The notes below the pieces were generated by a model. The model did not search any database. It saw nothing but the letters and a program-made list of their open reading frames with translations, and was not told where the DNA came from. A stretch of 64,000 bases of DNA from Saururus chinensis (taxonomy: Eukaryota; Streptophyta; Magnoliopsida; Piperales; Saururaceae): NCBI GenBank assembly GCA_035235625.1, contig CP141150.1, positions 33,310,756-33,374,755 of the forward strand. Direction: 5' to 3'. The number at the start of each line of letters is the position of its first letter. Position 1 is the stretch's first letter. Position numbers and translations under genes: made by a program. Below are positions 12,318 to 42,124 of this stretch, one piece after another.

Positions 12318-12375
12318 CTCCCAAGTGAATGACAAATGTTCTTCTGAGTGGCATTTTTCAAATTCCCAGTCACTT

Positions 12376-15659: not shown

Positions 15660-18600
15660 TTTCTTCAAATAAAATATTTATAAAGTTTATTATTTAATAA
15701 TTTCATATGTGATGGTTAGAGCTCGCAAATACGAGCATAACAAGTCAAAAAATGCATAAATTGGAGGTCGGGAACGAAAGTTACGATCTTGGGAAGCGTG
15801 TTCTACACCAGAATCCACATTTAAAATTTAGGTAAACTAGCTCATAAGTATCCTAGTCCCATAGGGCTCGTCAATACGAGCTCAACGGTACTGAGAATGT
15901 GCGAAGCTGAGTCTGGGATAAGAAATTACGTTTGTTTGAAGTTAAGGTAAAAAAATATATCGACAAGGCCGCCGCCTTGCCATACGTGGATCAGGTGAGC
16001 GGCACGTGTCGAATGCACGCATCATGCATGACGAACGCACATGACAAGCTCGCGTTCATTATGCGTTTCATGACCAATGCGCGTTTGTCACACGTGGCGC
16101 CGCCGAAAATGGCAGCGCGTCGCCGACTTCGACGATTATAAATTTCTTCCCCTCGTCAATTTTTTACATAGTTCATTTCTTCTCCCCTTCATTGTTTTCA
16201 GTGCTTCTAACCCATTTTATGTCCGTTTTAGCCCACCCAAAACCCGTTTCTTATTTAATCGAGGGTGCTCTTTACACCGGAAGGGTCATTTTCTCAAGGT
16301 GGCCTCTCTAAAGTCAAGAAAACCCTACCCCTCTCCTAATCTCCCCCTTTTCTTATTTTTATTGTTTCTGGACCATCTTAAACATGTTTGAGGCTATTCA
16401 AAAACCATAACCCACTAAATCGAGGGTGTTCTACACGTTGGGAGGGTTATTCTTCCGAGTTGACCACTCGAAGGTTGAGAACTCAAGGAGGGATTTTCTT
16501 TATTATATTCTACGAAGGGATTTCTTTATACTCTGCGCGTGTTAGAGTTAGCTAGTTTTAATTTGTAGACGTATGCTAGGATTTTGACTTACTGAAGTTC
16601 TGTTAAAGGTTTTCCTCTTATATTTTAAAAAGAAACTGTCTTTAAAAACATACTCTCTTTTGAAGAGATTTTTTGAGCTTTGGGTAACCATACCTTCTAG
16701 ATGGTTCTTGGTTTCTTGAAACTAGTAATTATCATGATAATGATTCTGGATACTGCCACATTTGGCTCTGGTGCGCACAGGAACTGGGATATCATAGGAA
16801 AATCTCTTTCCTTCTGTCTCTCGTTGCCCCATGAGTGTGGGTGTAAGTCGTGTGGTATCGCGACATTCTATGATCGTATTTTTTGAACTTTTATTATTTT
16901 CTGAATGATTTTAAAATGAAGGATGACACAATTTTCATATTCATGAAGCATATTTTTAGAACTTAACTCAACCTACTGAGTATGAAACACCCATCGAAAT
17001 TTCATGCTCAGAGGATACTGAAGTCTTATATATCCTTGGTTCACCTGCAAACAGTGACATGGACAAAATAATAGTTATCCTAGAATCACCTACTCGAGAG
17101 GAAGAGTCTTAGGAAGACCCCTCCTTGGAAGAAGAAGAGGAAAATTCTGATGAGGATAGCATTGAGTCTACGGGAAGAAGGGGCTTCAACCTGAATGAAC
17201 TACTCTCACCCGAGGTTGAATGTGTAGAAAAACAAGACGCCGAGCGTTGCCTCAAAGGGAAGGAAACTGGAAGGCATAGAATGACTAAACGGTGCACCTT
17301 TTGTGGGTATATGACCCACTTTTTCTTTGAGTGTCCAAAAGCAAAATATTTTCCTCTCTAAGAAAGTCTTAACTACTTAGAGAAGAAGGTTTGTAAGAAC
17401 CTCGAGTAAATAGTTTTGAATGTGTATAATAGTTTATGACATGTACTTTGAGTTGTTATGTAAATAGTTAACCTAGTTTTGGGTGATGTAAATAAGTTGC
17501 AAAGGTGTTATGTAGTAGCTTTGTTTTTATCAAAATATCTTGATATTATCAATCTATGTTTAGATGACACACGCTAGTGGCAATGAAGCCCAACTAGCAA
17601 GTAGCTCGACTCCACCAGACATTACTACGCCGGTCACTTTAGCAACCGGGGATCCTATTACACATTTTCTTGATTTATTAATGTAAAGAATGGCTCGACA
17701 CCTTCAGGCAGAAGGATTCCAATTGAATCATTCAAATCACTCTACTATTTTGGGAGAAAATATCCACGGTGAAAAAGGTAATTTGTTGGAACGTTTTAAG
17801 AATCTTGCACTAGCGTTTCTGGGGGAAGACGACCCTAAGGCCGCTAAAAAGTGGACCTTTTAGGTTGACCAAATTTTCAAAGCAATGAAGAATCCTGAGG
17901 ATCGAAAGGTGCCACTAGCCACTTTCTCAATGACGGGTGAAGCTGCCTTTCGGTGGCCTACAACAGAAAGAAATTTCTTCCTAGATAGTGATCATATTAA
18001 GTGGTAAGAATTTAATGAAGTGTTATATGATAAATATTTTCCTCCTCACATCCAAGAAAGAAAAGAAAAGGAGTTTTTGGACCTACAATAGGGAAACTTG
18101 ACAGTGGCCCAATACGAGAATAAGTTCGTACAACTAAAGCATTTTGCCCCATACATTTGTATGACGAATTGAAGATGGCGCAAAAATTTGTAAGGGGCTT
18201 AAATGATGGATTGCAAAGTAGAATCATTGGCCATCAACCCACCACTTTTGCCAAAGCAGTAGAGCGAGCCTCTATCCTAGAGCAGGACTACCAGGAGTTT
18301 ATGGTAGGACGTAAAGATTGAGGACAAAATACTAGTTTCATATCTGATGAAAGAAAGAGGAAACTTACATTTAACAATTAGAATAATCGTACCTTTCAAA
18401 AGTCCTCAGAACCACCTTCATAGTTAAAGGGAGAGATAAAGTTAGAAAAATATCCCTTGTGTAATAGATTTCATCCATCCGGATCATGCTACCTTACTGA
18501 AGGAAAGTACTTTTCTTGTGGTGAACGTGGTCATCGGATTAGAGATTGTCCCAAAAGGAAAAATCAAGAAGAATTGAAATCAGACCAGAAACCTAAAGCT

Positions 18601-21600
18601 CATGGTCGGGTCTTTGCAATCACTACTGAGGTGGCTAAAGCATTGACCGCAGTCATTCAAGATATAGTACTTCTGGTCTTAGATAAAATAGTGAAAATCT
18701 TGATAGATCCAAGGTCGACACATTCTTTCATATTGTTCGATTTTGCTTTGAGTATTGGCTATCCTATTTTAAATTTAGGATATATCTTAGAAGTGTCCAC
18801 CCCAATTGGAAAAACATTTCTAGCTCGTGAATTTCTTCGAGGGGTACCTATCTCCTTAGAGAAATAACAATGGGAGGCCGACCTAATTCTCCTAAATATG
18901 ACAGACTTTGATGTCATATTAGGTATGAATTGGTTAGCTGATAACGAGGCATTTGTAGATTGTAAACAGAAGAAGGTTATCTTTGAACAAGGAGAGAAGA
19001 GGTTTACTTTTTATGGATTAAAGGATCATTCCAATCCATGTATTATTTCTGCAGTTAAGGCTCATCGGCTTTTAACTAAAGGATGTCAGGCATATCTAGC
19101 CAGTATAGAGACTTCAATGAATAAACTGGAAAATATTAATGTAGTACAAGACTTCTCCGATGTTTTTCCTAATGACCTCTCTGGACTACCACCAAAAAGA
19201 GAGATAGATTTTTCTATTGAGTTGATGTCGGGAACAAATCCTATCTCTAAGGCACCCTACTACATGGCTCCTACGGAATTAAAAGAGTGAAAAAGTCAAT
19301 TGCAGGACTTGCTATAGAAAGGATTTATCTGACCTAGTGTCTCTCCTTGGGGATTACCGATCCTGTTTGTGAGGAAGAGGGACGGGTCGTTGAGGTTATG
19401 CATTGACTACAAACTGCTCAATGTTGTCACCATAAAAAACAAGTATCCTTTACCCCGTATAAATGACTTGTTCGATCAATTGAGAATACGAGATGAGTAT
19501 ATTTCTAAAACAGCTTTCCGCACTTGGTATGGCCACTATGAGTTTTTAGTGATGCCATTTGGATTAACAAATGCCCTGTCAACCTTCATGGATCTCATGA
19601 ATAGAGTTTTTCGGCCCTATTTGTATAAACTTGTAATTGTATTTGTTGACGACATCCTAATCTACTCTAGTAGCTTAGAAGAACACTTGAGAACATTTGC
19701 AAGTAGTTCTGCAAACGCTGAGGATCATAAGCTTTACGCTAAATTTAGCATGTGCGAATTTTGGATGGACCAAGTGGTCTTCTTAGGACATGTCATTTCA
19801 AAGAATGGTATATCTGTGGATCCAACCAAGATAGAAGCGGTTATAAAATGGGAAAGGCCGAAGATAGTGACAGAAATTCAGAGCTTTTTAGGCCTTGATG
19901 GTTATTACCGAAGGTTCATCCATGGATTTTCAAGCATTGCCTTACCTCTGACAAAATTGACAAGGAAAAGAATAAAATTTGTTTGGGATGAGGCATGTGA
20001 AAAAAGTTTTCTTGAGTCGAAGAGAAAATTAACAACTGCACCTATTTTGGCATTACCAACTGGCAATGGAGGATTTATCATGTACATCGATGCTTCTAAA
20101 AGAGGCCTAGGATGTGTATTAATGCAAAACGGAAAGGTGATAGCATACACTTCATGACAATTAAAGAAACATTAAAGTAACTACCCTACTCATGATTTGG
20201 AATTAGCAGCGGTAGTTTTTGAACTAAAAATATGGAGACACGATCTATATGGAGAAAAGGTTGAAGTTTTTACTAATCATCAAAGTTTAAAGTATATATT
20301 TTCCCAAAGTGATCTCAATATGAGGAAAAGACGGTGGATTGAATATCTTAAGGATTACGACTTTTTTTATTAAGTATCACTCGAGAAAAGCCAATGTAGT
20401 AGTTGATGTTTTAAGTCATAAATAAGGAGGAATAGTCTTCATTCTTGTCAAGGAATGGAAGCTGTTGGACAAAACAATAAGTTTCTAACCTGAATTACAG
20501 TCTAGAAACAAGAAATCCTTCATTGCCAACTTAGAAGTGAAATCGGTGCTAGTTAAGTGTATTCTTGAAAGCAAGAAAGGTAATGAAGAAGTGCAAACTT
20601 TGCTCGAAAGATCTAACTTTATCAAAGGCTCAGATGGAGGTATTCGATTTCGAGGACGATTAGTAATACCAGAAATATCTGAGCTAAAGGAAGACTTATT
20701 ACATAAAGCACACTAGTTTCGATATACCATCCACCCAGGAGGAACAAAAATGTATCAAGATTTAAAAAAGATTTTTTGGTGGAATGGGATGAAGAAAGAT
20801 GTAGGAGAATATATTTTAAAATGTTTAACTTGTCAGCAAGTTAAAGCCGAACACCAAAAACCTTCGAGATATCTTCACATAATAGAAATCCCCAAGTGGA
20901 AGTGGGAACACATTACTATGGATTTTGTTTTGGCATTACCCAGGACTTCACAAGGTCATGAATCCATTTAGGTAATCGTAGATCGACTCACAAAGTGTGC
21001 GCATTTTCTTCCATTAAGAAAGAAACAGTCTCTAAGTTCTTTGGCAAAATTATACGTGAAGGAAATTGTGAGTTGGCATGGAATACCGTTATCGATCATC
21101 TCAGATCGAGACAATCGATTTACCTCCAAGTTTTGGCAAGGACTTCAAGAAGAATTAGGCACAAATATTAAATTCAGCACTGTTTTCCACCCTCAAACGG
21201 ATGGACAATCAGAAAGAACTATTCAAACTTTGGAAGATATGTTGCGTGCTTGCGCAATGGATTGGAAAGGTAACTGGGATGGACATTTACCTTTGGTAGA
21301 GTTCTCTTACAATAATAGTTACCATGGCAGCATAGGTATGGCACCCTATGAGGCATTATATGGACAACCTTGCAAATCGCAGACGTGTTGGAATGAAGTA
21401 GGAGAACGTAGATTGATTAGGTCCAAATTTCTGCAACAGTGTGCAGATAAGGTGAAACTTATCAAGCATTGTCTAATGGCATCCCAGATCCATCAAAGGA
21501 GTTATTCTAATCAGAGACGAAGAGATATTGACTTTAACGTGGGAGATCAAGTATTATTAAAGGTTTTGCCAACCCGAGGAGTCATGAGATTTGGAATTAA

Positions 21601-22895: not shown

Positions 22896-23672
22896 CTGAT
22901 AATTACAAATTAATTACGGGTGTGTATAAGGTTGGACATTGTATGTGCCCGATGGTTTTTGTTAGGTTATAGGGGTCTTACAAAACTCGAGGCCCAACTA
23001 AGGACTAATATTCCAATGTGCGTGTACACAACTGTTAGTATAAGCCCCGTTAATATAAACAATGAGCACAACAATTCACAAAGTAATAAAAAAATAGGAG
23101 ACAAAATTTACCCGGTGGTTTGGCAATGCCTACCTCCATAAGTAGCAACAACAAATTCCACTAATAGTGAGAAAAACTAATTACAATAGTATCTTCCCCT
23201 GTCTCTTGAAAGCCTTTGAAAAAACACAAAAAACCCTCCCATATAATTCTCCCATAATTCTTCTCTACCTCTCTAAAGAAAAGAAAATAGAAGTATCTCT
23301 CAGGATACACACACCTGTTATAAGAGTCATAATTTTATAGCAAAAAGTCAGTTGCAATAGTTGATCCAATAGGAAATATTTTAGTCCTTTCCAATTCAAG
23401 TCATAAAGCCAAAAAAGGAAAAACACGTTTAGACGCATTGATGTCATGTGTTGTTAGGAACATGCTTTGACATAATTGTGGCGAAATACGGTGCTTTATA
23501 AGGCCAGTTGCCCTGCCCTTCTAGTTAGGGTCTAATAACTCTGATGCCCATATTTAACCAAAGAAAATAATTATGAGAATAAAACTTCTAGACAATTAAT
23601 ATTTGCTTTAATATTCATGATAGATTAGAGTTCCATTATCTTTATAATACTATTACAAGCTAAGAAGATTTT
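22896..23672. other. terpene synthase 3' flank, no gene seen
   Basis: AT-rich DNA between the exon 2 relic and the stop codon of the intact terpene synthase. The part next to 23673 should hold its 3' untranslated region; poly(A)-type AATAAA-like words occur near 23570-23620 on the minus strand. Confidence 0.45.
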
Positions 23673-26600
23673 TTATTCATACTCGTCCACCAGCTCAATT
23701 GGTTCAACAGCTAGTGACTTAAATACATCAAGGGCCCTTGCCCTTTGAGTTCCAAAGCCATCTCCATATAAGTAATACCACTGTGCCATTCGTACAAAAT
23801 CCATTGCACTTAGGACAAAGTCTCTTGGAAAGGAAGAACCTAAAATCAAATGCTTATTCATCTTCTTCCATGATTCATTGATCATATGCTTCACATGCTC
23901 CCGAGCAGCTTCTTCTGAGACTCCTTTCTCATGCATAAAGCATTGGACAGCCTTTAGCACATCTCCCCTTAACAGCTCATCCTGTGTTATTGACACAATT
24001 ATCAACAATTGCTTATCAACTTGAAAATATTATTTAAAGAAGTACAGGAGCATACACTTGAGGTTCCTAGGTCATCAAGAAGACGAATAGCAACTGACGA
24101 TGCTTGTATAAGATCGGGGTAGCTGTCTAGAAGGTTAAGTCTTTGCTTGGTTATCCCTTGGTTCATTAGAATAAAGCCACTAGATAATACAACTGGAGTG
24201 GAGATGGAAACCCAAGCATTGTTCAGGTATTCATCAAAAGTAGGTTTATGTCCTTGGTAGAACCATTTTGCCTCTTCCAAGTATGCTTTGCATAAATCTC
24301 CCCACTACGCACAATTCAAAGAAGTCGGACCAGTTAAGAAAGTGTTTTATATGTTAATGAAAACAGAAAAGAGCAAATGTGAAGCGGTATTACTTTAGTT
24401 TTTAGAAATGGTATGATGTTAAACCCTTGTTTAGGACTTGTGTATCCCATTTCATTAACCATGTTGTAGAGGGCTAAATAGCAGTGCCTCATATACTCAG
24501 GAAGCCCTTCAAGTGCTTGTAGATCCCACCTGCGGCATACACATAGGAAATGAAATGTTACAGCGTCAAACATACGCGTTTGTCAAAAGGGCCAATATCA
24601 GTGAAGGCTACAGCCTTAGGCAGATTAGGTGCAGCCTAAGGCACCCAAAAAAAGCCCCTTTAACAAACGAGACTGGGAGAGAGAAAGAGAAGCGCTATTA
24701 CCCCTCTCACCAAGGTTTTCTTGATATTTATCTGGCAAGAAATACAACTCAAATGATTGTTCCTTCACTTGTCTTTTGGAACATATGGGTGAGTCTCTGT
24801 GCATCTAAATATATGATGATAAACCCTGATTCTTTGGTAAATCTATAACCATGTAAGACTGATGGTTTCCATTGCTAAGCCTATGTGAGCTGAACAAAGG
24901 ATCACTTCTTAATTAGGTCTTTTCCATTAATAATAGATTTTTTCATTAAAAAGACTAAAAAAATAGTCACAGCCTGAATGCGGCCAACTGCAAGGCTAGA
25001 CCGCCAGTGGAAATGCCCCTAGGATTAACCCATCCCTTTTAGGTTTAATTTTTTATTTTAATGGGGGGCAAATGAAGGATAATTTTATATTCCCTCCGCC
25101 CTAAATTAATAGCCCCATTTTAAAAAATAGTGGGTTTTATTAAATGATGAAACCCCGTTAAGAAAAGGGAAAATAAGTTTATAATATATTTTTTTCAAGT
25201 GCCCAGACACTTAAATTAAATAAAATAAAGTAATTAATATGGAATAAAAATTTTTTATACTCTTTTTCAAGTGCCCAACCACTTAAATTAAACAAAATAA
25301 AATTATTAATATAAAATAAACTTTTTTTACCAGATCAAGCTATTAATGTAGTACAGAGCGAGTACGGGTTCATGTGTTATGGCAATTAACTGCCTAAGGC
25401 CACTAACTATATCGAGTGAGATAGTGGGCCAAATGATGTGCATGCGATACGCACCTTTGAATTGCATGTGTAAATAACTCAAGTTCTTCAATTGTTCCAT
25501 ACACGTCGTACATATCGTCAAGGAGTGTTATAAGCTGATTGACTTGTGTTAACCCTTCTCTAGCAAGTCCATACTGGGGTGGAGTAGCTATTACCAGGCT
25601 CCACATAAAACTTTCTGGCAAGCGATCTCTAAAAAATGGAAGCTGCTCTGCAAGCCCTTGATGCTTCCACCACCTACATTTACAATGATAATCAAGAAGA
25701 AGAATAAACAAAAGACTAGTTTGTTCTTTATCGACAAAGCATTATTGTTTGTGGCACAGGAAATGACCTGGACATGGCTTTAACGCTGCCCTGGTATCCT
25801 ACTTGACGAATGTTGTAATCTAACTTCGCCAATTCAAGTAGCTTATGGTTCTTCTTGTCCTTGCTTTCATATGCATGGATGGACCATCTTGCCTCCATTC
25901 TCGGTGTCCTCCAGTAGTAAGGAATCTCTAATCCATGCTCCACAAGTTTATGAAGCTCAGAGTTGATGTTCACCTTGAGATGGTCCCTTAGATGCCTAGC
26001 GGCGAAAGCTCTGGCATTATCCAATATTATCTCCCCTTCCATAGAAAGATAGGAAGCATCATACAGACTCAAAACTGCCCTTGTATCTTCACTTAAAGCG
26101 TCCTTGAAGCCACCATTATCATCCAAGAAGGGAATGAATTCATCTAAAGTTTAACAAACACCAAACCTCCTAATGTTACGTAAGTGACATGAAAGAAAGA
26201 AACTAAATCTTGCACACAAAATGATGTGTGCTCACCCTGAGGGATCATGTGCCCATGTTGTCGCAGGATCCTGAACTTGAGAGCGGTGTAATGCATATCG
26301 TCTTCTTTCCTTGCATTAATAAGTTTGTCCTCTATGACTCGCTTAATCTCCTCATCAAAGAGATAGCTCACCCCTAAACGTTGAAGGGTGTCAATAAGCT
26401 CTAGACTGCTATGTGCATCTTTCCCCTCCTCCAATATTAAACTCCTTGTGTAATCCTTGAGATTCTCTGCACGCCTTGTGTATGTTGCTTCCTGCATCAT
26501 AAAATTAGAGATTAATTGCCAGTATGTACCTGCATGTCTGGGCTTTTAGAGACCCGTTCCCTAAGTAACGGAACCTCAGACCATCTTATTAACAAAAAAA

Positions 26601-26838
26601 ATATGGATATAATTTAAATAACTCAAATAATCACCCCATAATCACTCCTTAGCGATTGAATAAAATCATAATCACATATTGGTGGTGGATAATTTGCTGA
26701 TCTCCGCGAAACTTCCAACTCTTTGTCGATGTTTTTCTGAATGCATTTTATGCGCTGGCATCTCCTTCCATTTTGTACAAAAGGAGTGGAGGGAACTGCA
26801 AGGGTCAACATGGGATTTAGGGTAAGGAAAGTGGCCAT
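23673..26838 (-). CDS. terpene synthase, plastid type (TPS-b-like, probable monoterpene synthase)
   Basis: Seven exons on the minus strand: 26838-26635, 26491-26236, 26143-25768, 25673-25455, 24529-24394, 24304-24056 and 23981-23673, giving 582 residues. Exon sizes (256, 376, 219, 136, 249 bp) and phases are those of class III angiosperm terpene synthases. Catalytic motifs are present: RDR at 294-296, the Mg-binding DDMYD at 331-335 and the NSE/DTE-type DDLGTSSDE at 474-482. About 44 residues precede Arg45-Arg46 and look like a plastid transit peptide. The family's RRx8W motif has Cys55 in place of Trp, an unusual change in a motif linked to monoterpene cyclisation. The likely reaction is conversion of geranyl diphosphate to a monoterpene; the product cannot be predicted. 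I chose the ATG at 26838 because it precedes MATFLTLNP, whose start is preserved in three partial copies nearby. The frame is open throughout. Confidence 0.93.
24590..25340. repeat. MITE-like insertions in terpene synthase intron 4
   Basis: Intron 4 is 925 bp, far longer than the other introns (74-143 bp). At about 25090 it has CCCTCCGCCCTAAATTAATA, the end sequence of Stowaway-like MITEs, followed by direct repeats of TTTTTCAAGTGCCCA-xxx-CACTTAAATTAAA. A clean second terminus was not found. Confidence 0.5.
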
Positions 26839-26875
26839 TGCTACACAGCACAAATATATTGAGGCCTCCCGCTTG

Positions 26876-26877
26876 GA

Positions 26878-26938
<61 letters not shown>
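26876..26938. repeat. (TA)n expansion in the terpene synthase core promoter
   Basis: About 60 bases of pure TA repeat, 38-100 bp upstream of the start codon. The relic copy at 11475-11505 has only ATATTTATATAATT at the same place, which looks like an ordinary TATA box. The microsatellite has therefore grown out of the TATA/start-site region. Confidence 0.9.
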
Positions 26939-26942
<4 letters not shown>

Positions 26943-27030
26943 TGCTGGGTTTCTTGAGTCAATATTAAAATATTTTAGAGTTGCTGCATGGACCTTGCTG
27001 TAAGATACTTTGAAAGAAAATATATTATTC

Positions 27031-27112
27031 TAAATGGAAGGCCTCCGTTTGTGCTGTGTAGCAATGGTCACTTATCTCCTTAGCCTAAATCACATGTCAA
27101 CCCTTGGAATAT
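27031..27112 (+). pseudogene. head-to-head copy of the terpene synthase leader and start codon
   Basis: On the plus strand GGAAGGCCTCCGTTTGTGCT, then GTGTAGCAATGGTC (ATG at 27064) and about 15 codons' worth of sequence match the minus-strand leader and start of the intact gene, and match the relic at 11441 even more closely (both have CTTATCTCCTTAGCCTAAATC). Homology ends at about 27112. It lies 0.2 kb from the true start, pointing the opposite way. Copies are at 12385-12430 and 29840-29900. Confidence 0.8.
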
Positions 27113-27199
27113 AAATAAAATAAATAAATAAATAGGTAAGATTTTTGTTTCCTAATGGTTCAAACTATTGGGAAACAACTGTTTTCAAACATTTTTAAC

Positions 27200-28715
27200 T
27201 GCCTACTAGTATATAACGTTATATAAATTTTGCCTTGTGTTTGAATGAGAAACTTATTAAGTAATTATTTCTGGTCACATGAAAAAAAGAAGATAGTTCA
27301 CAAAGACTGAACGAATAAATGAGTATATTAGTGAACTAATAAGAATCTTAACTTTTGATGTCTTGGCCTCCGTCACTGGAAATAAAAATCCTTTTGATGC
27401 CATAGCCCCAGAAGAAATATTGAATAAGATTAACGGTCAAACTTAGTATTACTTAGTATAAACTAGTACCTTTCCCTTAAAAAAGACATATTACAATCAA
27501 GTGGCATGGTACTCCCATTACCTTTCTACCCTCTTCATCACAACAAGTTTCATCAATTCACATGTTACACCATTACTAATTACGTATGAACAAACACAAC
27601 GGGATGCACACACTTTTCATTCAAAGGATCTTTAGAGCAAGGTCCATGCAGGTAATTAATGCAAGACTTTAATATTGAATCAAGAAAACAAGCAGTACAT
27701 ATGTATAGAATGTGGTAGCTATATCCCATTTCTTATTTAGTACTCATAAGTAAAGTTTCTTGGGGTTTTATGGGTTCCAAATGGCTGCATTCATTATATA
27801 TAGATAGGTTGTCACTCGGGTCGGGTATATGGTAAAACCCGACCCGACCCTAACGGGTTAGGTTTGGGTTTTCAAATTCAACCTAAATAGCTATTCGGGT
27901 CAAGTTCGTATTTCATGTGATCCAACTCAACCCAGCCCAAATAAAGTTATAAATATAATTTTTTTATATTTTGATAAAACTTAAACCGACCCGACCCGAT
28001 CCTAATGGGTCGGGTATGGGTTTCCAAATTCAACCCGACTAGCTATTTAGGTTAGATACGAGTTTACCATTTCTTAAATAGTATTTGGTTCGAGTTTGGC
28101 AAAACTCGACCCGAACCCAACATGGTAGCATCCCTATATATAGATTATATGAAGGCGGCTACTTGACCCATAAAACCTCTCAATACTCCAAGAAACTATA
28201 CTAAGGAGTAAATGAGAAATGGGGTACATACATGTGCTTGTTTTCTTGAATCAATATTTAAATCTTGCATTGATTACTTGCATGGACCTTGCTCTAAGAT
28301 CCTATGAATCATAACTTGAAGCATCACATTGTTTGTTCCATAATTAGTAATGGTGTAACATGTGAATTGACGAAACTTGTTGTGAGGGAGAAGGTAGAAA
28401 ATTGGCTGGGACCATGTTACTTGATTATACTATGTTTTTTTTTGGGGGGGGAAAGCTATCAGTTTATACTAAGTTTCACCATCAATCTTATCTAATATTT
28501 CCTTCGAGGCTATGACATCAAGTATTTCTAGTCCACACTCCCCTATGCTTAAGCATCAAAAGTGAAGATTCTTATTAGTTCAATAATACACTCATTTAGT
28601 CATTCAGCTTGTGAACTATACTCCTCTTTTCATGTGACCAGAATAATTATTGAATCTCTTTTTATCATTCAAACACAAGGCAAACTTTATGCAAATTTAT
28701 ACACTTGTTGGCAGT
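27200..28715. repeat. long inverted repeat of terpene synthase promoter-type sequence (unit A)
   Basis: The left arm at 27200-27796 and right arm at about 28165-28715 are reverse complements with roughly 85 per cent identity by eye over about 550 bp. Shared landmarks include TGCATGGACCTTGCTCTAA, AATTAGTAATGGTGTAACAT, AGTTTATACTAAGT and CAAACACAAGGCAAA. The promoter of the exon 1 relic (11500-11680) shares the same blocks, so the arms derive from terpene synthase upstream DNA. Before the MITE at 27805 arrived, the loop would have been only some tens of bases. No terminal inverted motif or target duplication marks it as an ordinary transposon. Confidence 0.85.
27805..28136. mobile_element. hAT-type MITE in the palindrome loop (332 bp)
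   Basis: It starts TAGGTTGTCACTCGGGTCGG and ends GGTAGCATCCCTA, with a perfect 8-bp target duplication TATATAGA at 27797-27804 and 28137-28144. Same family as 6841-7132. The orthologous insertion exists in the tandem copy (30608-30953), so it arrived before the tandem duplication. Confidence 0.9.
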
Positions 28716-29816
28716 TAAAAATACTTAGGTGTCATCATCACTTCTCGTATGATGCCTAAATTTATGTTATTTTTTTGTATGCCTCAATAATTCTAGCTTA
28801 AAGCTAAAATTTACTGCTTGTGTTATGAAGTAAATTTATGCATAAAAGTAAATTGTGCACTTGTTGCCTCTTCTAAAGAAAACTAAAAATGGCGATCAAC
28901 ATCTAAGATTAATGATGAGGAGACGCTTTTAATATAGTAATTCTAACAGTCAATATATTACTTTAGTACATTAATTTAGATTATTCTATCAAAATTAGCA
29001 TTTAGCATTATATAATTATGTTTTAATTGAGTTTCATATATTGTTATCACATAAACTAAAGCAAATGGACAAGAAATTTAGTTAATGTGTCATATCTTAT
29101 GAATCCTCAAATTAATCGAAGGGACTAGAATATGTTGCATGATCTTTGAGTCCCATTTGAAGACTTATAGTGTACCTCATTTTGAGCTCAGCACGAGCTT
29201 AACCCATTTGAGACTTACCTAATAGGGCTAAGCATACCATTGATTTCTTTTGCTTCCATACATTGCAAATTGTCGGAAAGCTCCATTTTTTGACTCTTAA
29301 TAGGACTCAAAGAAAGCGCTGTAAAGCAACTGGCTCAAAATTGGGTCGGACCCTTTGGACACAAAACCACAAAAATAGTGAAGGAGTTTTTTATGGATGA
29401 CAGAGTAGTACAATTGAAAGCCACATATCTATCCATTTTATCACTATTTGGTAAATGTTACCTGCCAACACTACAAACCATGCAACACTTAGAAAAGGGA
29501 CACATTGAAAGCCACATATCTCTTGGATTAATGATGAGGAGATGCTTTTAATATAGTAATTCTAATAGTCAATATATTACTTTAGTACATTAATTTAGAT
29601 GGTTCTATCAAAATTAGCATTTGGCATTATATAATTATGTTTTGATTGAGTTTCATATGTTGTTATCACATAAACCAAAGCAAATGATAAATAAAGCTAG
29701 TTAATTTAACATATCTTATGAATCCTCAAATTAATCGAAGGGACTAGAATATGTTGCAGGATCTTTGAGTCTTTTGAAGACTTATAGTGGAATATAAATA
29801 TGAGAGGGAGGGAGTA
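28716..29816. repeat. remainder of tandem unit A, with an internal duplication
   Basis: No gene is seen. The segment 28905-29180 is repeated at 29523-29790 (both start ATTAATGATGAGGAGA and run through TTGATTGAGTTTCATAT-like sequence), and again at 41235-41510 in unit B. The whole 27022-29816 stretch is one unit; the next unit starts at 29817 with the same TATATTATTCTAAATGGAAG. Confidence 0.8.
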
Positions 29817-31290
29817 TATTATTCTAAATGGAAGGCCTCCGTTTGTGCTGGCAATGGTCACTTATATCCTTAGCCTAAATCACACGTGGACCCTTGGAAT
29901 ATAAATAAAATAAATAGATAAGATTTTTGTTTCCTAATGGTTCAAACTATTGGGAAACAACTGTTTTCTAACATTTTTAACTGCCTACTAGTATATAACG
30001 TTATATAAATTTTGCCTTGTGTTTGAATGAGAAACTGATTAAGTAATTAATTATTCCGGTCACATGAAAAAAAGAAGATAGTTCACAAAGACTGAACGAA
30101 TAAATGAGTATATTAGTGAACTAATAAGAATCTTAACTTTTTGTCTTGGCCTCCGAAATAAAAATCCTTTTGATGTCATAGCCTAAGAAGAAATATTGAA
30201 TAAGATTAATGGTGAAACTTAGTATTACTTAGTATAAACTAGTACCTTTCCCTTAAAAAATCCATATTACAATCAAATGACATGGTACTCCCATTACTTT
30301 TCTACCCTCTTCATCACAACAAGTTGCATCAATTCACATGTTACACCATTACTAATTACGTATGAACAAACACAACGGGATGCATGCACCAACTTTTCAT
30401 TCAAAGGATCTTAGAGCGAGGTCCATGCAGGTAATTAATAAATACAAGACTTTAATATTGAATCAAGAAAACAAGTGGTACTTATATATGTAAAGAACGT
30501 GGTACGTAGCTATGCCCCATTTCTCATTTAGTACTCATAAGTAAAGTTTCTTGGGGTATTGAAGGGTTTTATGGGTTCCAAATAGCTGCATTCATTATAT
30601 ATATATATAGGTTGTCACTCGGGTCGGGTATATGGTAAAACCCGACCCGACCCTAATGGGTCAGGTTTGGGTTTTTATATTCAGCCTGAATAGCTATTCG
30701 GGTCAGATTTGGGTTTTAGGTGATCCAACTCAACCCAATCCGAATAAAGCTATACATATAATTTTTTTTATATTTTTCTTTGTATTTTGATAAAATTTGA
30801 CCTGACTCGACCGTAATGGGTCGGGTTTGGGTTTCTAAATTCAACCCGAATAGCTATTCAGGTTAGATTCAAGTTTACCATTTCTTAAATGGTATTGGGT
30901 TCGGGTTCGGGTTTGGCAAAACCCGACCCGAACCCAACTTGGTAGCATCCTTATATATAAATTATATGAAGGCGGCTACTTGACCCATAAAACCTCTCAA
31001 TACTCCAAGAAACTATACTAAGGAGTAAATGAGAAATGGGGTACAATCATGTATTCATGTGCTTGTTTTCTTGAATCAATATTTAAATCTTGTATTGATT
31101 ACTTGCATGGACCTTGCTCTAAGATCCTATATGAATCATAACTTTAAGCATCACATTGTTTGTTCCATAATTAGTAATGGTGTAACATGTGAACTGACGA
31201 AACTTGTTGTGAGGGAGAATGTAGAAAATTGGCGGGACCATGTTACTTGATTGTAGTATGTTTTCTTTTTTAGGGAAAGCTATTAGCTTA
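29817..31290. repeat. tandem unit B of the terpene synthase upstream region, first part
   Basis: Collinear with 27022-28450 at high identity: leader/start copy (ATG at 29854), left arm, MITE loop and the first part of the right arm. It is cut at 31290/31291 by a CACTA-type end. The rest of the unit resumes at about 40880 (CATCAAAAGTGAAGATTCTT, as at 28557) and runs to about 41930. About 100 bp of the unit are missing at the break. Confidence 0.85.
30608..30953. mobile_element. hAT-type MITE, copy inside unit B
   Basis: Starts TAGGTTGTCACTCGGGTCGG and ends GGTAGCATCCTTA; TATATATA-type flanks. It occupies the same place in unit B as 27805-28136 in unit A, so it is a duplicate and not a separate insertion. 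Confidence 0.85.
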
Positions 31291-31493
31291 CACTACAACA
31301 AAATAGATTAATAGTGACGCAATTATACGTCACTAATAATGATACGAACATCGCTAATAAGCGTCGAAAAAACTACAATCGCAATTGCTAATTCGCGGCA
31401 AATAACAAACATTGTCGCTAATATTCGTTATTAGCGACGTATACAAGTTCGTCACTAATATCAATTTATGTGTTGCTATTAATTATACCATTA

Positions 31494-31539
<46 letters not shown>

Positions 31540-32344
31540 GCTAATGATTTGTATTAGCGACAGATATTTATACGTTGCTAAAATTAAACATTTGCTGCAC
31601 ATATAAATAGTCGGTAATACTTAAATATTATCGACGTATATTTATACATCTTTAATAAGTTTTGGCGACCTATATTTATACGCTGCAAATAGTTTTAATT
31701 GGCGACATATTTCTTTATGTTGTTAATATTCATTTAATAACGACTCACGCATACGTCGTTATTAACTCTATACGTCGCTAATGTTTATAAAATTAATTTT
31801 AGGTAGAGGTATACGTCACTATTTGGTAGAACTATAGTGACATTTCTTGGTTTACGTCGCTAATAGTTTGTATTTTAACGACATATAAGTTATACGTAAC
31901 TAAAAATATTAACAAATATTAAATAAATATTAGTTGCTTATTTAAATATTTATTGAGACATTATAAATGTGTCACTAAATTTAATATAAAGTTAAAAATA
32001 TAAAATAAATTAGATAAATTATACTGAAACTCCCGCTAATGCACATTTCACTCCTTCCCCTCTTCTTAGGCCTCGAACCTATGTACTGACTACTCCCACA
32101 TTCTGTAACCGGTTATGATATGAAAGATTTTGCTTAATTTAATGAAAGAAATTAATTTTAAAATTACTTCTTTTACTTTCATGGTAACAATATTTGTTAC
32201 ATTAGAATTAATACATCATGTGTTGAAATTAATACAACACCACTAAAATGGTCACAAGTAGTGTTTTTTGTTTGTGTACGAATGAAATGAACAGATTGCT
32301 TACATAGCTCTTCAATCTAAGCTTATTTCCCTCTATGTATAAGA

Positions 32345-32580
32345 ATTAGAAGTTGAAGTCCAACAAGTTCCTTAACCCCTGTCGAGTGCATCTTGATTGC
32401 TCAAATGTTCCCATAGCCCATCAGATGCAAAAATCACAAAATGATCACGTGGCTCAAGGGGATGCACATAAATTGAGGGTTCAACACTTAGGATGGGCAC
32501 CCTGAGTTCAATTTGGCATATAAGGGCTCTCTATTATATTCAGCCATTTTCAAATATATATCACCAATAGATCTTGTTAC
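32345..32580 (-). pseudogene. PP2C protein phosphatase fragment (clade D-like)
   Basis: The minus strand begins after an AG acceptor at 32580 with [20 protein letters not shown] and YAKL. After a short deletion, a shifted frame gives [20 protein letters not shown] and [19 protein letters not shown]. This is the C-terminal catalytic part of plant clade D PP2Cs, including the metal-binding DG of the FASDGLWEH motif. The upstream catalytic motifs are absent. The frame breaks and missing exons make it a pseudogene fragment. It lies among CACTA-type sequences, so capture is likely. Confidence 0.85.
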
Positions 32581-33181
32581 CTGAAAATAATGAAAGATAA
32601 TAAACCATCTGCTCAAACTTGAAATTATTTTCATTATATTAAGAAAATATGAAATTTAACCATCATCACGTGTTAAATTATTTCAGTGAATGAAGACAAT
32701 TTCAAAAATAAAAAAAGGTGAATGAGAACTCACTTCATTCCATGACTTTCCTTGGGCCAATCTAGGATAAAGAAGTGCTTTCCGATTAACAAAAGTAACT
32801 GTTTGAGACTGCAATCAATTTTGGCTGCAATTGAGCATCACAGAGCATCAATTAAATTCATCAATTATAACAAATAAACACCACAAGAAAGTTTCATCAT
32901 AATCATCACAGACCATCATCTTGGCAGAGTTATATAGGGTGGGTAACAAAAATCTGCTCCTGATTCGATGCATCAAATGGTTTCTCGGCTCAAGATTCAT
33001 TTTGCAACTATCTATCATTTATCAACTATCTAAGCCTTATTGCCAATTCGATTACTCATAGGTTCTTGAAGAATCCTTCTGAAGCCACTCCCTCCCATTT
33101 CATTCACTTCAACACTACTAGATTAATATGAAAGGGAAAGTTAGTCTATAGTAGAAGGCCAGAGTCAAAAGAATTGAAATG

Positions 33182-33572
33182 TGTTATGCTTTGCTTATGT
33201 TCTGTAGTTAGTTAGGCAGTTAGGTTAACGTGCACATAGGTAGTTATGTTAGTATGCATGCTACTTTTGCTTATTGTTCTTTTTAATTAATAATTGGTTA
33301 GTTATAGTCTATGTAGTTAGTTTTATCTATGTAGCCCAATGGGCAAGATTAGCTAGCCTGTTTTAGGCTGAATTGTTGTAATTAGGAATTAATGAAGAAT
33401 TAGCCTTTTCTCTTTCTCTCTGTCGTCCCTTCCCCCCCTCTCTCTCTCTCTCGACCTGCTCATTCAAACCAGGATCGCACTTGCAAACTGCAAGTGCATC
33501 CCTCCTTTCCCCTTCCTCTAATTTCCCTTCTCTCTCGTCTTCTTCTTCCCTTCATAATTCTGGTATATAACA
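33182..33572. mobile_element. copia-like solo LTR (391 bp) with 5-bp TSD
   Basis: TGTTATGCTTTG ... GGTATATAACA, with TG/CA ends and a perfect AAATG direct repeat at 33177-33181 and 33573-33577. The polypyrimidine run before the end and the small size suit a copia-type LTR. No internal region is present. Confidence 0.85.
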
Positions 33573-33879
33573 AAATGTTTGTCTGGAGGACTAAAGGACT
33601 CCATTGAGACAAGAAGAGCAAATAAAGGCGAAACAGTAGAGGATAGTATTGGATGCAGTCTGTCAATTTGGAATTACCTTCACAGGTGGTAGAGATTGCA
33701 CACCGGGCAGCGAACTAGTTGTAAATATGAAGAAATGAAAGTATCATTTGAGGAATTATGGTCAATTTGTAAAGATCAAGTTCTAGTGGTCTACTAATAA
33801 AAGTTATTGTTTAATGAAAGATCAATCATGTAGGAAGAATGAGGCAAGTTCTAGATTGACAGACAAAATACATGTACCA

Positions 33880-34445
33880 GCAATCCAGACCCTGGTTTTG
33901 ATATTTTTCAAGATGTAGGCCCCGTTTCTCTGTACCATCTCCTCTGTGGTTCTCTCTTCTGGGATTTTTGCTGGCAGTGACAATTGTTCAGTCAGGACTG
34001 CAACTGGGGAGCAAATAAGAATGCGTCAATCCTCATCCAATCTTCATGATCAAGGTTAGGGAATTGAGCAAAAGATTGTCAAAGATTAACACCGCTGAAC
34101 TCTTACCAATGTGCTTATCTGGTTGTCGAAAATAGTACGAATGAGTCCCATCTACATCATTAAGATAGATACTCCTGTCACTCTGAAATGCAAGACTGTC
34201 ATTGAGATCTCCAATAGATGATGAACTGCATTTCTCATAGTACCCGAATTGTCCAGGGGAGAAAACCCCAATGCAGTCATCATTTGATGAGTTTGGCGAG
34301 ATAAACCGCAATGAGAGAACAATCTTGTATGTGAAATTTTCATTCCTCCTTAAAAATACTAACCGGGAACTTAAATACTGGTCAAAAATTTCACTTTTCT
34401 TAAATGAAAGGCCACCAGTCATAGTAGCACAATCCCAAACTAAAT
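33880..34445 (-). pseudogene. two exons of an unrecognised gene (fragment)
   Basis: A minus-strand exon at 34445-34093 follows a TTTTTTAG acceptor and ends at a GTAAGA donor; a second at 34002-33880 follows a TTGCAG acceptor and ends at GTACAT. Spliced, they keep one open frame of about 158 residues containing FTYKIVLSLRF, SYYFRQPDKHIV and EEMVQRNGAYILKNI. I do not recognise the family. Possible short upstream exons with good splice sites lie at about 36717-36672 and 36425-36376. No start, stop or complete gene could be assembled. It may be a captured piece like the PP2C fragment, or part of a real gene that is hard to see. Confidence 0.5.
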
Positions 34446-35348
34446 CCTAAAAAACAAGGACGCAAAAAATTAATTAGCCCATGAAAATGGTTTATATTAA
34501 CTATTTCCTTAACATATACATCATCACTACTGAGAAAGGACGTAGCACAATTTACTTCAATGACTAAATTAGCCATTCCTCTAATTTACAGCCTGACTCC
34601 CAAGCCCCCAACCATGCTATCCATATGAAAACATTATTGTGCAAAGAGAAAAAGCAGAGGAACAAGCTCACATTTAAGACCCTAATCGAAACACAAGATT
34701 TTTTCATAGATACACGGTATTTTGTTACTCTCACAAACTGAAATAAATTCCTACTCCTAACAGTTCATATAATATCTATTCTTGGAGGGTTGAAGGTAGT
34801 ATGGGTAAAGGTCTCTTTCTAACTATCAATATCAGTCACTGTAACATTACATGTTTACAAGTAGTAACTGAAAAAAAATGTTTGAATTTCATAACAATTG
34901 AAAATCTCCAAATGTAGGTAGTTAAATATCACAAGATTATGGAATTAATATTATTCTTAGATCTAAATTTTGAGTGAAAACAGAGTAAAATAACTCAAGA
35001 TTTAAAGCAAGAAATTATTTAGAAATAAGAACATAAAAAAATAGACAAGTCCAGCATTCTTAATCTTGAGCCAGTTCAAGCTAACTTCGATAAATATACA
35101 AGCCAGTTCAAAACCAAGCTTGAGCTCATTCAAGTCCTAAGCCTATGGTTTAGCTCAAGTCATAGGATTCATTAGGGGCTCAAGGTAAATGCAATAAAGC
35201 TATAATCCAGGTGATAATCATAATTTTTTTAGCTTTTCCATAGTTCCATAATCAGTGCAACAAATCTAAACAGGCCCTCAATATATTGTCTTTGTTTCAG
35301 TGTGCTGATCCATATGAATGCCTTATCACAATTCTTCCTGTCCTTGAA

Positions 35349-35675
35349 TGTTATGAACCCTGCAATTCAGAAATCTGAAAATGGGATAATGGGGAACGAA
35401 GAGAGAGGATCTTCCACTGGTTCAAGTCAAACCAGTGAAAGGAAGAAAGGCAGAGAGAAAAGGATTACGGGAATAGAGCAGAGCAATTTAGAGTAACTGT
35501 TTTCTCATTACTTTTTCAATAGGGCAGTCACCCTTTATATAGTAGTAGAGATTCCTAATTAGACCTAGACTAAATAAGGAAACTACCTAATGAAGAAAAC
35601 TGCCTAATGAAAGATAATTTGCCCTAATGAAGACAAATTGCCTAATTTAAAACATCCTAACTACGATCCATAACA
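35349..35675 (-). mobile_element. copia-like solo LTR (327 bp) with 5-bp TSD
   Basis: Read on the minus strand: TGTTATGGATCG at the start and GGGTTCATAACA at the end. A perfect TTGAA direct repeat lies at 35344-35348 and 35676-35680. Similar in style to the solo LTR at 33182, but in the other orientation. No internal region. Confidence 0.85.
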
Positions 35676-35680
35676 TTGAA

Positions 35681-38234
35681 CTTTTTTGGCCTTTTAGTTC
35701 CTCTTCCTAACCAACTTAGAATTAAAAGATAACTACATTTATTCAAGCAAAAAACCAAGATGGAGCGCATCCTAACTGTCTAACTGTCCTAAAAAAGATG
35801 AAGGTAGGCTCACTTCATGTTTGAGCCTGGATTCAAGGCTAGAAGTGGCGTAAAGGCCAAATTTTCAAGCTCAAATCAAGCCATGGTTTGATCCAAGCTG
35901 GCTGAGCATGGTTTAACCCCCCGCAAGGAAGGAAATGTTAACAGGTACTAGATGATTTATATTTGAATCAGGAGATGCTTGACAATAAATCCATCCAAAT
36001 GCAGATGCATATCATTATAGAAAATTCACTGATGGCCAGGTTTTAATAAAAAAATTATTGAAGCCCAATAAATTCATGGCCATGTTTTAATAACTCCATG
36101 AACAGTTCAGGATCATCACACAGATGATTGAGTATTCTAAAACTACAGTGGAAGCTTTAGATGTCAAAAGAACAAATTTATTTTTGTCTTATAATTTTCA
36201 ATCATGTATGGGGCGATACTCTAAAATGAAATGCCTGTATTTATCACCTTTTTTTTTTAAAATGCAACTTATCACATCAAATGTTAGAGCTACATATGCA
36301 TATATTTCAAACGCCCAAAAAGTAAATAATCATTACCTCTTAATGTTCTTCTTCTGCTTTCAAACCTTCACTTGAAGAAGCCTCCAGCAAGGTGGACACT
36401 CCAAAATGAATCTAAATTGTCACATAATTATATAAACATAATTAGTTCCCATATCTCTAGTCCCATAGAGTTGGAAAAAGATGCATCTTGGTCATGATAA
36501 TGATAAGTGACTTCAAGAAAATCAAAAGAGTTGACATCAGCATACGAAGAAGGTAATTGGTGAGTCTTTATACATGTTTGATGCAAGTGTAGTATGTGGA
36601 CCTACTCTTTGATTAATTAGATCATTCATTATTTTTTTATTCATGAAATTATTTTGATTACCAAAATGCAGACTGCTGCAATATCATTAATGGGAAGATC
36701 TGCTCCTCCAAATCTGCAAGAAAATTTTTATTTAGAGATTTCTTTTATACAATTGGGAAACTTCAAGCGTTGAGAGCAAGCTGAAAATAAGAGATAAAAC
36801 TGGTGGAAATGTTAATTTTGATAATGCATTTTCCAAAAGAATAACATGCTACCTAAGTGACAATTAAATTACTAATAAAGCATCTTTAATGTCTAACAGA
36901 CCTCTATAATGGGCCATAACACTATAATCTGAATTATAAATTTTTTGTGCATTAATAGTACAGATTTTTCATATATTGGTAAAAGAGGAAATACAGTCTA
37001 GCATGTAATAACATGTTAACCCAACTACCTAAAGAAATGAAGAAATAAATAGCTGCATCTTACTGCTATGAAAAAGGTTTTGTCTCCTAGCTCAAAGAAA
37101 AATATAAGCAAGAATGCCTACAACATTAACAAAAAGACATGTGATCAACACTGACAATATCTCTAAGTTTTTCATCAAATCATAACAGAAGTATAATTGC
37201 TACATGATGGTATTCTATGTAATCTAGCTATTAAAAAAATGTCACCCACATCTGCTACAATTACATGGCCCTAGTGCTGGTCACCAACGAGCCTAACCCC
37301 TGGCCACTGAGGGGTCAATCGGGATCTTCCTCCGTGCTGCAATTGGGGCGAGGTGTCCGCCGGAGGATCGCCGGGAGCAAACGGTGGGACAGGCAAGAGC
37401 TTTATAGCCGGAGGATCGCCGCGAGCTTTATAGCCGGAGGAGGCGGGCGCCGGGAGTGAGATGGTCGCAGGATTTTCACAGTTCGCTTGGTCTCCGTTAG
37501 CTGGAACGGGCTGAGGACGATCTTTGGAGATGATCGGAACGCCGACAAGGGGGGAAAATTCCATAGAGGGTGGGGGGCTGACGGCAGAGGAACGGGGAAA
37601 GGGGCTGACGGCAGAGGGAGGCAGGAAGCTATGTGTCGATTGGCACGGGAGGGAAAAAGTTCCCGCGCTTTGGCTGAGGTCATGTCCTATTTCATCAAGC
37701 AATAGTAGTAAACCCGTGAGTACTATGGGCTGTCGGATGTAAATCCGACGACCCATTAAGCCCGAGCTTATGTTGGCGAGCATGAGCCGGACTCATTATA
37801 AACTTTTTCATTATAATAACGTATGAAAACAGAACTTAAGGTAAAGTTATAATAAAATCATAACCAAGTAAAACTCCTTCCTGTAACGCCTTTTACCCTA
37901 AGTAAAATCATAATAGAAAACCAAACTTCAAAATACAAGTGTTATTCTCAATATTTTTAATATTAATAAATGTTTATATTATAATACTATATAGAAATAG
38001 ATATTATACATTTATCCGATGGCACACATCGTATAGCAAGGCAGGCAAATATGTGTTGTACAATTAATGTTGTGTAGCCTTAATACGGTTAACATATGTA
38101 TGTGCTAACAATGCTTATTAATAACGGGTACCCTAATTTTCGTCGAACTTTTAGTGGGGGTGGGGAATGTTACGAATGTAGGCCTAATTGTGTAACGAGG
38201 GAAATGTGGGTCTATTTGTTTAGCTGAGGGGTAT
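35681..38234. other. AT-rich region with a G/C-rich island, no gene identified
   Basis: Apart from the possible small exons near 36376-36425 and 36672-36717, nothing is recognised to 37240. At 37265-37720 base composition becomes GC-rich, and a 170-codon open frame runs on the minus strand (37783-37271) with low-complexity Pro/Ser-rich translation. Composition and position would suit the promoter and first exon of the captured minus-strand gene, but no motif supports that. Confidence 0.35.
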
Positions 38235-39679
38235 ATAAACCCTATTAATTTGCTCCTTAAATTTGTATATGATTCAGGTAATATATACCGCACGATAATT
38301 TAAATGGCGGCCGTAAATAAATCTTGGGACATCTATTATGCACGACCTCACACCGGGTCAAATTTTGATCTGATGATGATGTCCGGGCATGAACCACCGA
38401 ATATTTAAAAATTTATCTTAAAGTTTTCGTTAATTATATTTTGTGTATTGGTATAATTAACAAATATTTTAGACAAATATCTTCACTTGTAGCATGCACA
38501 TTTTGCGATCTCAAACTAATAGTCAGGACTAATATTTTATTTTTACCTATTATCTTTATTCCATTGTATGTGAAGTTAAGTTTCAGCGCCTCATTGGGAG
38601 CCATGCACTTTTGGGGAATATAAATATACAGAATACAAATTTATAAGGTGCACACGTAAATAAATCATGCCACATGAAGTATGCACGCCCTCGTGCAGGG
38701 TCGAAATTTGATCCGACGATGATGACCGCTTGGGCATTAACCATCGTATATTAAAAAAAAATAACTTATTTTTTCAGTATTTATATTTTGGTTGTCGGTA
38801 TAATTAACATATTTTTTTTAACAAACTATTATTAGAAAAATAGTATTATTAGCGACGTATTTAGTTGTATGTCGCTATTGATGTATATTAATAGCGACGT
38901 ATAATGACATATGTCTCTATTAATGTATAATATTAGCGACGTATAACATTATATGTCGCTAATAATTAGTATTATTGGCGACATTTGAAGCTATATGTCA
39001 CTAATAATGTTCACCAATTTTTAATATCTAATATATATATCCTACAACTTTTAAATTTTATGATTTTCCGGACTCATCATACACGAGCCACATTTGATAT
39101 ACAGAGACATCAAATTTCTAATCGATGAGAAACGTATCACTAGTATCGCGTGCATTTTGCGATCTCAAACTAATAGTCAGGACTAATATTTTATTTTTAC
39201 CTTTTATCTTTATTCCGATGTATAAAAAGTCAAGTTTGAGTGCCTCATTGGGAACCATGCACTTTGGGGGAATATAAATATACCGAATATAAATTTATAT
39301 GGTGCTCACGTAAATAAATCATGGCACGTGAAGTATCCATGCCCTCGTGCATGGTTGAAATTTGATCTGACGATGCTGACCGCCCGAGCATGAACCACCG
39401 AATATTAAAAAAAATTATCTTATTTTTTCAGTATTTATATTTTGGTTATTGGTATAATTAACAGATTTTTTAACAAATTATTATTAGAAAAATAGTTTTA
39501 TTAGCGACGTATTTAGTTTTATGTCGCTATTGATGTATATTACTAGCGATGTATAATAACATACGTCGCTATTAATGTATAAATATTAGCGACGGATAAT
39601 ATTATACGTTGCTAATAATTAGTATTATTGGCAACGTATGCAGCTATACGTCGCTAATAATGTTCACCAATTTTTAATA

Positions 39680-39727
<48 letters not shown>

Positions 39728-40170
39728 TACAACTTTTAAATTTTATGACTTTCCGGACTCATCATATACGAGCCACATTTGATATATAGAGACATCAAAT
39801 TTCTAATCGATGGGGAAACGTATCACTAATAGCGTGCGCATTTTGTGATCTCAAGCTAATAGTCACAACTAATATTCTTTATTCTGATGTATGTCAAGTT
39901 AAGTTTCAGCACCTCATTGGGAGTCATGCACTTTGGGGGAATATAAATATACCAAATATAAATTTATATGGTGCACACGTAAATAAATCATGGCACATGA
40001 AGTATGCATGCCCACGTGCAGGGTCGAAATTTGATCCGACGATGTTGACCGCCTGGGCATGAACCACCGTATATTAAAAAAATTTAACTTAGTTTTTCAG
40101 TATTTATATTTTGGTTATCGGTATAATTAACAGATATTTTTAGACTAAAGAATATTAGAAAAATAGTGTT
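38235..40170. repeat. tandem satellite, about 0.65-0.69 kb units, 3-4 copies
   Basis: Units begin near 38491, 39141 and 39829 with CATTTTGCGATCTCAAACTA-type sequence, and each contains GGGTCGAAATTTGATCCGAC- and TTGGTTATCGGTATAATTAA-like blocks. A partial, more diverged unit precedes them from about 38235. Each full unit ends in a cluster of TTAGCGACGTAT palindromes. A (TA)n tract at 39688-39725 is specific to the second unit. Confidence 0.85.
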
Positions 40171-40879
40171 TTTAGCGGCGTATAGAAGTATACGTCACAA
40201 TTTATACTAGTTAATAGTGACATATAGCATATATGTCGCAATTCATGACAGTTAAAAGCGACATAAACCACAAACATCGCGATTAATACACATTATTAAT
40301 GACATATCTTTTTACGTCGTAAATAAATAGATTTATTAGCGTCGTAAATAGAAATATGTCGCGAATATTTGAAAATAACAATTTTTACTCCAATATTTAA
40401 TATCTAATTCACAATTATTTGTGTTGTTTATTTCTATGCATCGCCAAAAGTATTTTTTTTTACCGACATACAGGTTTATTTGTCGCTACAAAATTAGATT
40501 AGTTGCGACACAATATATTATATAATCTCAAATTTTTTACTAAATTTTTTTGATTATTTGTATATGAATTATGGTTATTGGCGACGAAAGATATATATGT
40601 CGCTAAAATACGTCAGTATTTATGATGTATTATTTTTATTCATCGCAAATCTATGATTTTATAGCAATGTTTAATTGAATATGTTGGTGATAGGTTTTCT
40701 GGAGGGGGCGGGAGTTTTATTAGTGACGTTTACTAGTAAGCATTGCAAGTGAATATTGTTATAGTGATGCATATAATATTGTGTCAATAATGGGTATGAT
40801 ACTAGCGACGTATTTATATACGTCGCTAATAACATATATTAGCGACGCATATATTTGCGACGCAAAACTCCCAGCTGCT

Positions 40880-41930: not shown

Positions 41931-42124
41931 AAGGAAATAGCATTTAATATCATAGGCTTAGGTAGAAGAAACTTCGTACTTACAATTAATATGAATATCG
42001 TGACTCACAATTACATGATAGTGCTTGTGAGTGTTGAAGCTAGTCAAGAAGGTGTTTCTAGCATAATTACCTAGAATGATATTAATCAAATGACCATACA
42101 AAAACATTGAAGTATTAGTTATGC

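Follow-up and report, generated by a model that had tools for sequence, protein, structure and literature searches.

The stretch analysed here, hereafter the window, comprises 64,000 nucleotides of contig CP141150.1 of Saururus chinensis (positions 33,310,756 to 33,374,755 of the forward strand) and contains a terpene synthase (TPS) gene with a large palindrome at its side. A first-pass annotation of this DNA had described the palindrome as promoter-derived and tandemly duplicated, and had proposed that a hairpin RNA made from it acts as a self-encoded switch for terpene output. The descriptive part of this proposal, i.e., promoter-derived, duplicated and local arms lying beside a TPS gene, is borne out by our analysis, but the switch is unsupported by the sequence, and the palindrome is probably the decaying structural relic of an inverted duplication of TPS promoter sequence.

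The TPS gene (Table 1) had been called intact, and its in-frame splice model indicates that it apparently is. Terpene_synth and Terpene_synth_C domains were recognized by Pfam in exons 2-7, and exon 1 gave no Pfam domain match. The closest relatives of the protein in the PDB are monoterpene synthases (E 1e-153), and both TPS domains, the in-frame gene and the aspartate-rich motif DDMYD assign it to the TPS-b type. The usual TPS motif is RR(x8)W; at 26635-26838 this gene reads RRSANYPPPIC, i.e., RR(x8)C, with the W replaced by C. Since the gene occupies the minus strand (23673-26838), its transcription is directed away from the palindrome, which sits to the right of the gene, on its upstream side. 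Read-through from the nearby gene or from long terminal repeats, which had been suggested as the source of the hairpin, is not supported by this arrangement, the Pfam-recognised retroelement remnant being located at 18.4-20.2 kb. This remnant (18424-20157, plus strand) contains protease, reverse transcriptase and RNase H domains, and the domains of a 2-oxoglutarate dehydrogenase E1 gene are found at 53134-55636, also on the plus strand.

Outward from the TPS gene, the start codon (26838) is followed by an AT microsatellite, by promoter block P (26930-27020) and by the first tandem unit, which begins at 27021. This unit contains, in this order, a TPS start fragment, a dispersed repeat piece (about 27115-27192), block X, the reversed promoter core P', a miniature inverted-repeat transposable element (MITE), the promoter core P, the reversed block X' and a tail that extends to 29814. 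The arms of palindrome 1 align by BLAST over 638 columns with 74.3% identity; when aligned globally they agree in 485 of 641 columns (76% with gaps), which amounts to 85.8% of the 565 ungapped columns. The inverted arms are real, as their BLAST score of 392 bits compares with a best score of 37.4 bits in 100 dinucleotide shuffles of 27021-28722. Six inverted pairs, each 150 bp or longer and less than 5 kb apart, were listed for the window; four of them come from this palindrome or from its copy in the second unit, and the remaining two score 64 bits. The start fragment is 79% identical to the TPS gene start (26886-26799, in reverse), with an exact match of 20 nt, and it recurs at 29842-29896 and 12382-12447. 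Neither these outward-facing fragments nor the MITE spacer had been noticed in the first-pass annotation.

Table 1. Features of the TPS locus and its palindromes (window coordinates; percentages are nucleotide identities; UTR, untranslated region).
Feature	Position	Strand	Details
TPS relic: exon-1 piece, 5'UTR, promoter	11298-11668	minus	11298-11584 is 77% identical to 26697-27021
Copy of block X at the relic locus, including a start fragment	12382-12887	plus	82% to 27047-27554
TPS gene	23673-26838	minus	Seven exons, 582 aa, in-frame splice model, GT-AG introns
TPS exons 1-7	26635-26838, 26236-26491, 25768-26143, 25455-25673, 24394-24529, 24056-24304, 23673-23981	minus	
Promoter block P of TPS gene, part common to arms	26930-27020	minus	81% to 27707-27614
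Tandem unit 1	27021-29814		About 2.8 kb; 27021-28471 is 88.6% identical to 29815-31295
TPS start fragment (5'UTR, ATG, ~13 codons)	27047-27106	plus, outward from gene	90% identical, in reverse, to relic start 11457-11400
Left arm of palindrome 1	27191-27808	plus	Block X to ~27551, reversed promoter core P' ~27553-27707, central 100 bp
hAT-type MITE, most of loop	27805-28136		8-bp target duplication TATATAGA at 27797-27804 and 28137-28144
Right arm of palindrome 1	28133-28722	minus	Central 100 bp, promoter core P 28234-28375, X' 28376-28722
Single-locus tail of unit 1	28723-29814		Internal repeat 28907-29172 / 29526-29789 (92%)
Tandem unit 2, first part	29815-31290		Left arm 29973-30611, MITE copy, proximal right arm from 30952; 88.6% to unit 1
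CACTA-like insertion	31291-40866		9.6 kb; splits palindrome 2; terminus CACTACAACAAAA at 31291
Tandem unit 2, continuation	40867-41894		Distal right arm 40867-41052 (94%) and tail; matches 28537-29500 (82.8%)

The unit is indeed copied from 29815, as had been annotated, but the second palindrome is split by an insertion that had gone unnoticed: the remaining part of unit 1 (28537-29500) finds its match behind this insertion, and thus the second palindrome is an interrupted one. Both copies carry the MITE, so the tandem duplication of the unit followed the insertion of this element. The MITE has an 8-bp target duplication, TAGGG-like ends (TAGGTTG and TAGGGAT) and many short copies, features by which it is putatively assigned to the hAT superfamily. 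The insertion that splits unit 2 has a CACTA terminus and dispersed copies beginning at that terminus, since at least 33 of its 48 further genome matches start at its first base, 31291 (40 of 111 candidates scored). A search of the window for its right terminus, as a minus-strand match to CACTACAACAAAA with at most one mismatch, found none, and the three open reading frames that were searched against Pfam gave no match. About 65-70 bp of the arm are missing at the CACTA junction. The subterminal repeats of the insertion are rich in GCGACG, and its interior holds tandem repeats of about 0.65 kb (38.3-40.2 kb). The order of these events is readable from the insertions that the two units share and those that they do not.

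The promoter origin that had been proposed for the arms agrees with their matches to the relic and intact promoters and, by means of a profile, to TPS paralogues on chromosome 9. The homology to the promoter of the intact gene is short, as previously pointed out: it covers block P, of which the portion 26943-27014 is also 80% identical to 28235-28308, and which is contained in the 77% match to the relic. The blocks shared with the upstream DNA of the relic were likewise recovered, since 11504-11668 is 74% identical to 28234-28404 in the core of the right arm and 11492-11645 is 75% identical to 27707-27553, i.e., the reversed core of the left arm. The relic locus as a whole (11298-12887) has the order gene start, P, an unrelated stretch, and X with its start fragment. 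Between the promoter and X lies a second element (11803-12318), whose ends are TAGGGTTGCAAA and TTTGCAGCCCTA and which by eye resembles another hAT-type MITE.

A profile of the core, built from six window copies, was run on 12 of the 13 off-window TPS paralogue loci. The top scores (14.3, 12.2, and 11.8 bits) belong to loci L023, L012, and L011, all on contig 9, and these hits lie upstream of gene starts and in gene orientation. Six of the best eight hits are upstream and gene-oriented, and two (L023 119-158 and L028) are placed otherwise. Taken absolutely, these scores are weak, and the hit in L023 is about 1.2 kb upstream; the best score in 40 shuffles of these loci was 7.3, none of the 40 being as good as the real loci, and the rest of the window scored at most 3.8. 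The core aligns with TPS promoters that are devoid of the remaining arm sequence. Judging from these alignments, the arm core is derived from TPS promoter sequence. The arrangement gene-P-X is probably older than the split between the relic and the intact gene, the palindrome having added the inverted copy.

Long inverted arms around a spacer could also be expected from a foldback or MITE-like transposon that landed by chance in TPS promoters, and the spacer here is in fact a MITE. The genome (516 Mb in 11 contigs) was searched with parts of the palindrome; the search skips very common words, and thus the rarity of the arms holds within these limits. With the left arm as query, all 10 candidates were scored and yielded 11 matches, eight of them at this locus; the three off-locus matches are of 50-78 bp and are all confined to the dispersed repeat piece at the unit edge, 27115-27192. 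With the tail as query, the two candidates, both scored, were the tail itself and its copy in unit 2. The search with the whole palindrome was dominated by the MITE, and could not settle the transposon question on its own: at least 38 of 51 matches are off-window and fall inside query bases 773-1124, which correspond to that element (40 of 1610 candidates scored). Within these limits, a dispersed foldback or MITE transposon was largely ruled out as the source of the arms, as the long arm matches and the tail are confined to the locus. The outcome that had been named beforehand as refuting the proposal, i.e., arms belonging to an abundant unrelated transposon family, is not borne out by this genome search, and a transposon landing by chance is a very improbable origin, considering also that the core aligns with TPS promoters lacking the rest of the arms.

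Concerning the proposed hairpin, RNA folding over 1532 nt gave minimum energies of -682.7 kcal/mol for the plus strand and -720.6 kcal/mol for the minus strand. Of the 586 predicted pairs, 477 join the two arms, and the longest helices have 33, 30, and 20 bp, suggesting that a transcript would fold, although imperfectly. Upkeep of the pairing was evaluated on the 551 columns present in all four arms: changes between units affect 41 of the 436 columns paired in at least one unit vs 11 of the 115 paired in neither, and a compensatory pair-to-pair change on both arms was found in a single column of the 551, without any pattern. This comparison, of modest power, gives no sign of selection for pairing. 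The idea of a maintained hairpin is not supported, as changes are equally frequent at paired and unpaired columns and the second copy is split. An Rfam scan of 23000-42000 found no family at gathering score.

The potential targets of such a hairpin match the arms poorly. The longest exact arm match is of 16 nt both to the intact promoter and to the relic promoter, of 11-16 nt to the 12 paralogue loci and of 11-13 nt to three unrelated loci; the TPS gene body shares at most 11 exact nt, and its best 21-mer has three mismatches. The best 21-nt stretch (28279-28299) differs from the intact promoter, and likewise from the relic promoter, at a single position. The three unrelated control loci have best 21-mers with 3, 4, and 4 mismatches; two other control loci, L038 and L039, contain the repeat piece 27115-27192 of the left arms, with 0 and 2 mismatches in 21 nt and 16 and 21 exact nt, which reveals the presence of a dispersed repeat piece at the edge of the units. 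A hairpin silencing TPS paralogues elsewhere in trans, which had been named as its possible best targets, would profit from the detectable relation between the promoter core and the TPS upstream regions of chromosome 9. This relation is too distant for such a role: the best 21-mer has at least three mismatches in 11 of the 12 paralogue loci and two in L011, with no more than 16 exact nt, and no TPS paralogue promoter appeared among the matches of the left-arm genome search. In these scans the paralogue loci did not surpass the unrelated loci, the exceptions being L011, L012-L020 by 0-1 exact nt, and L011 by one mismatch. We consider this trans-acting role most improbable.

Taking these results together, we assign a probability of about 75% to the reading of the palindrome as a decaying structural relic of an inverted TPS-promoter duplication. 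The upstream region of a TPS gene (core P and block X) is present here as an inverted pair with a hAT-type MITE in its centre, and a CACTA-like element split the second copy later. According to this reading, the inverted pair would have arisen by local inverted duplication in a TPS cluster from which gene bodies later disappeared, so that the relic and the outward-facing start fragments remain, and the palindrome would now be devoid of a selected function, even if any transcript of it should fold into a long imperfect hairpin. No sequence evidence was found for a hairpin promoter, for upkeep of the pairing or for a well-matched target.

Several observations weigh against this interpretation. 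Besides the helices of 33 and 30 bp that the arms still give in RNA folding, the divergence between the tandem units, calculated by comparing 27021-29300 with 29815-31287 and 40867-41630, is uneven: the arms differ at 54 of 1191 sites (4.5%) vs 60 of 573 in the tail (10.5%, p 4e-6) and 35 of 321 in the MITE (10.9%, p 8e-5 vs the arms), so that the arms have about half the divergence of the other two parts. One possible reason for this low divergence is that the arms are constrained as regulatory DNA. The arms could then have been retained as an upstream promoter or enhancer reservoir, independently of any hairpin, and the retention of the block TGCATGGACCTTGCT in both TPS promoters, intact and relic, as well as in R1 and the R2 remnant is in line with this idea. 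Nevertheless, the divergence of the tail climbs from 6-8% beside the arm to 12-17% farther out, a gradient that gene conversion centred on the arms could yield, even though the central MITE is not a simple fit, and mutable methylated sites may partly account for the higher rate of the MITE. As the comparison is made between two units only, and for a tail that has no outgroup, retention as regulatory DNA seems quite unlikely.

The palindrome could alternatively work in cis: transcribed, or else recognised for its inverted structure, it would be methylated itself and let the methylation spread leftward into the TPS promoter, in which the block common to the arms stops 170 bp short of the left arm. 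The long helices, the 477 arm-to-arm pairs and the 21-nt stretch with a single mismatch to the intact promoter would suit such a silencer, and so would the low CpG content of the arms of unit 1 (observed/expected 0.36 and 0.18). The CpG ratio is, however, as low in the tail (0.34) and in the intact promoter (0.30), and transitions make up no larger part of the changes in the arms (32 of 54) than of those in the tail (38 of 60); thus, a methylation footprint sought through CpG depletion and transitions did not distinguish the arms from the tail. The work on hairpin transgenes cuts both ways, since the repeat and the adjacent promoter became methylated in them, but mismatches in the repeat prevented methylation (PMC9263138). 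An Arabidopsis inverted repeat that is only 86% identical, IR1074, has been studied as a methylation target (PMC3203196), and hence degeneracy alone is no bar to methylation. Considering also that unit 2 is split and that no promoter driving a hairpin was identified, we regard cis silencing as unlikely, although it is the chief competitor of the relic interpretation. It would be a long shot to suppose that a promoter-only palindrome is a local self-methylating element that damps the adjacent TPS gene, and that the low divergence of the arms reflects that role.

If the relic interpretation is right, the locus offers a specialised-metabolism cluster caught while shedding genes and leaving behind inverted promoter fragments, with a readable order of events; such fragments are believed to supply the starting material of small-RNA loci. 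If cis silencing were true, a terpene gene would here be regulated by an inverted repeat made of promoter DNA only, with no target in coding sequence.

Among known systems, the PAI1-PAI4 inverted repeat of Arabidopsis (Ws strain) is similar in being a natural rearrangement in which the region of a biosynthetic gene occurs as inverted copies and has unlinked relatives. The PAI copies include genes and share at least 98% identity (90% for PAI3), and a heterologous promoter, situated about 500 bp upstream of the region that is methylated, drives their transcription (PMC3203196). In contrast, the Saururus arms are 76-86% identical, consist of promoter-region DNA only and share at most 16 exact nt with the nearest promoter; they thus lack both the long, nearly identical inverted copies (85.8% of ungapped columns) and the extended identity to a target (at best 21 nt with one mismatch) of a PAI-type system. 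IR1074 is a degenerate inverted repeat of the same quality as the Saururus arms, with the difference that its methylation was measured. In snapdragon, according to a review, a local inverted duplication tied to a specialised-metabolism gene produces small RNAs against a pigment gene, which is repressed (PMC6139297). The likeness lies in that local association, and the difference in that small RNAs are reported there, while the Saururus arms share no more than 11 exact nt with the TPS gene body. In the literature, covered in part, we found no case of a terpene synthase hairpin or of a natural promoter inverted repeat.

Tandem TPS clusters with pseudogenes are a generally known feature of plant genomes, and the locus resembles them in that an intact gene, a truncated relic and gene-start fragments are close neighbours. 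The palindromic and tandemly repeated promoter piece of Saururus represents an extra rearrangement on top of this arrangement.

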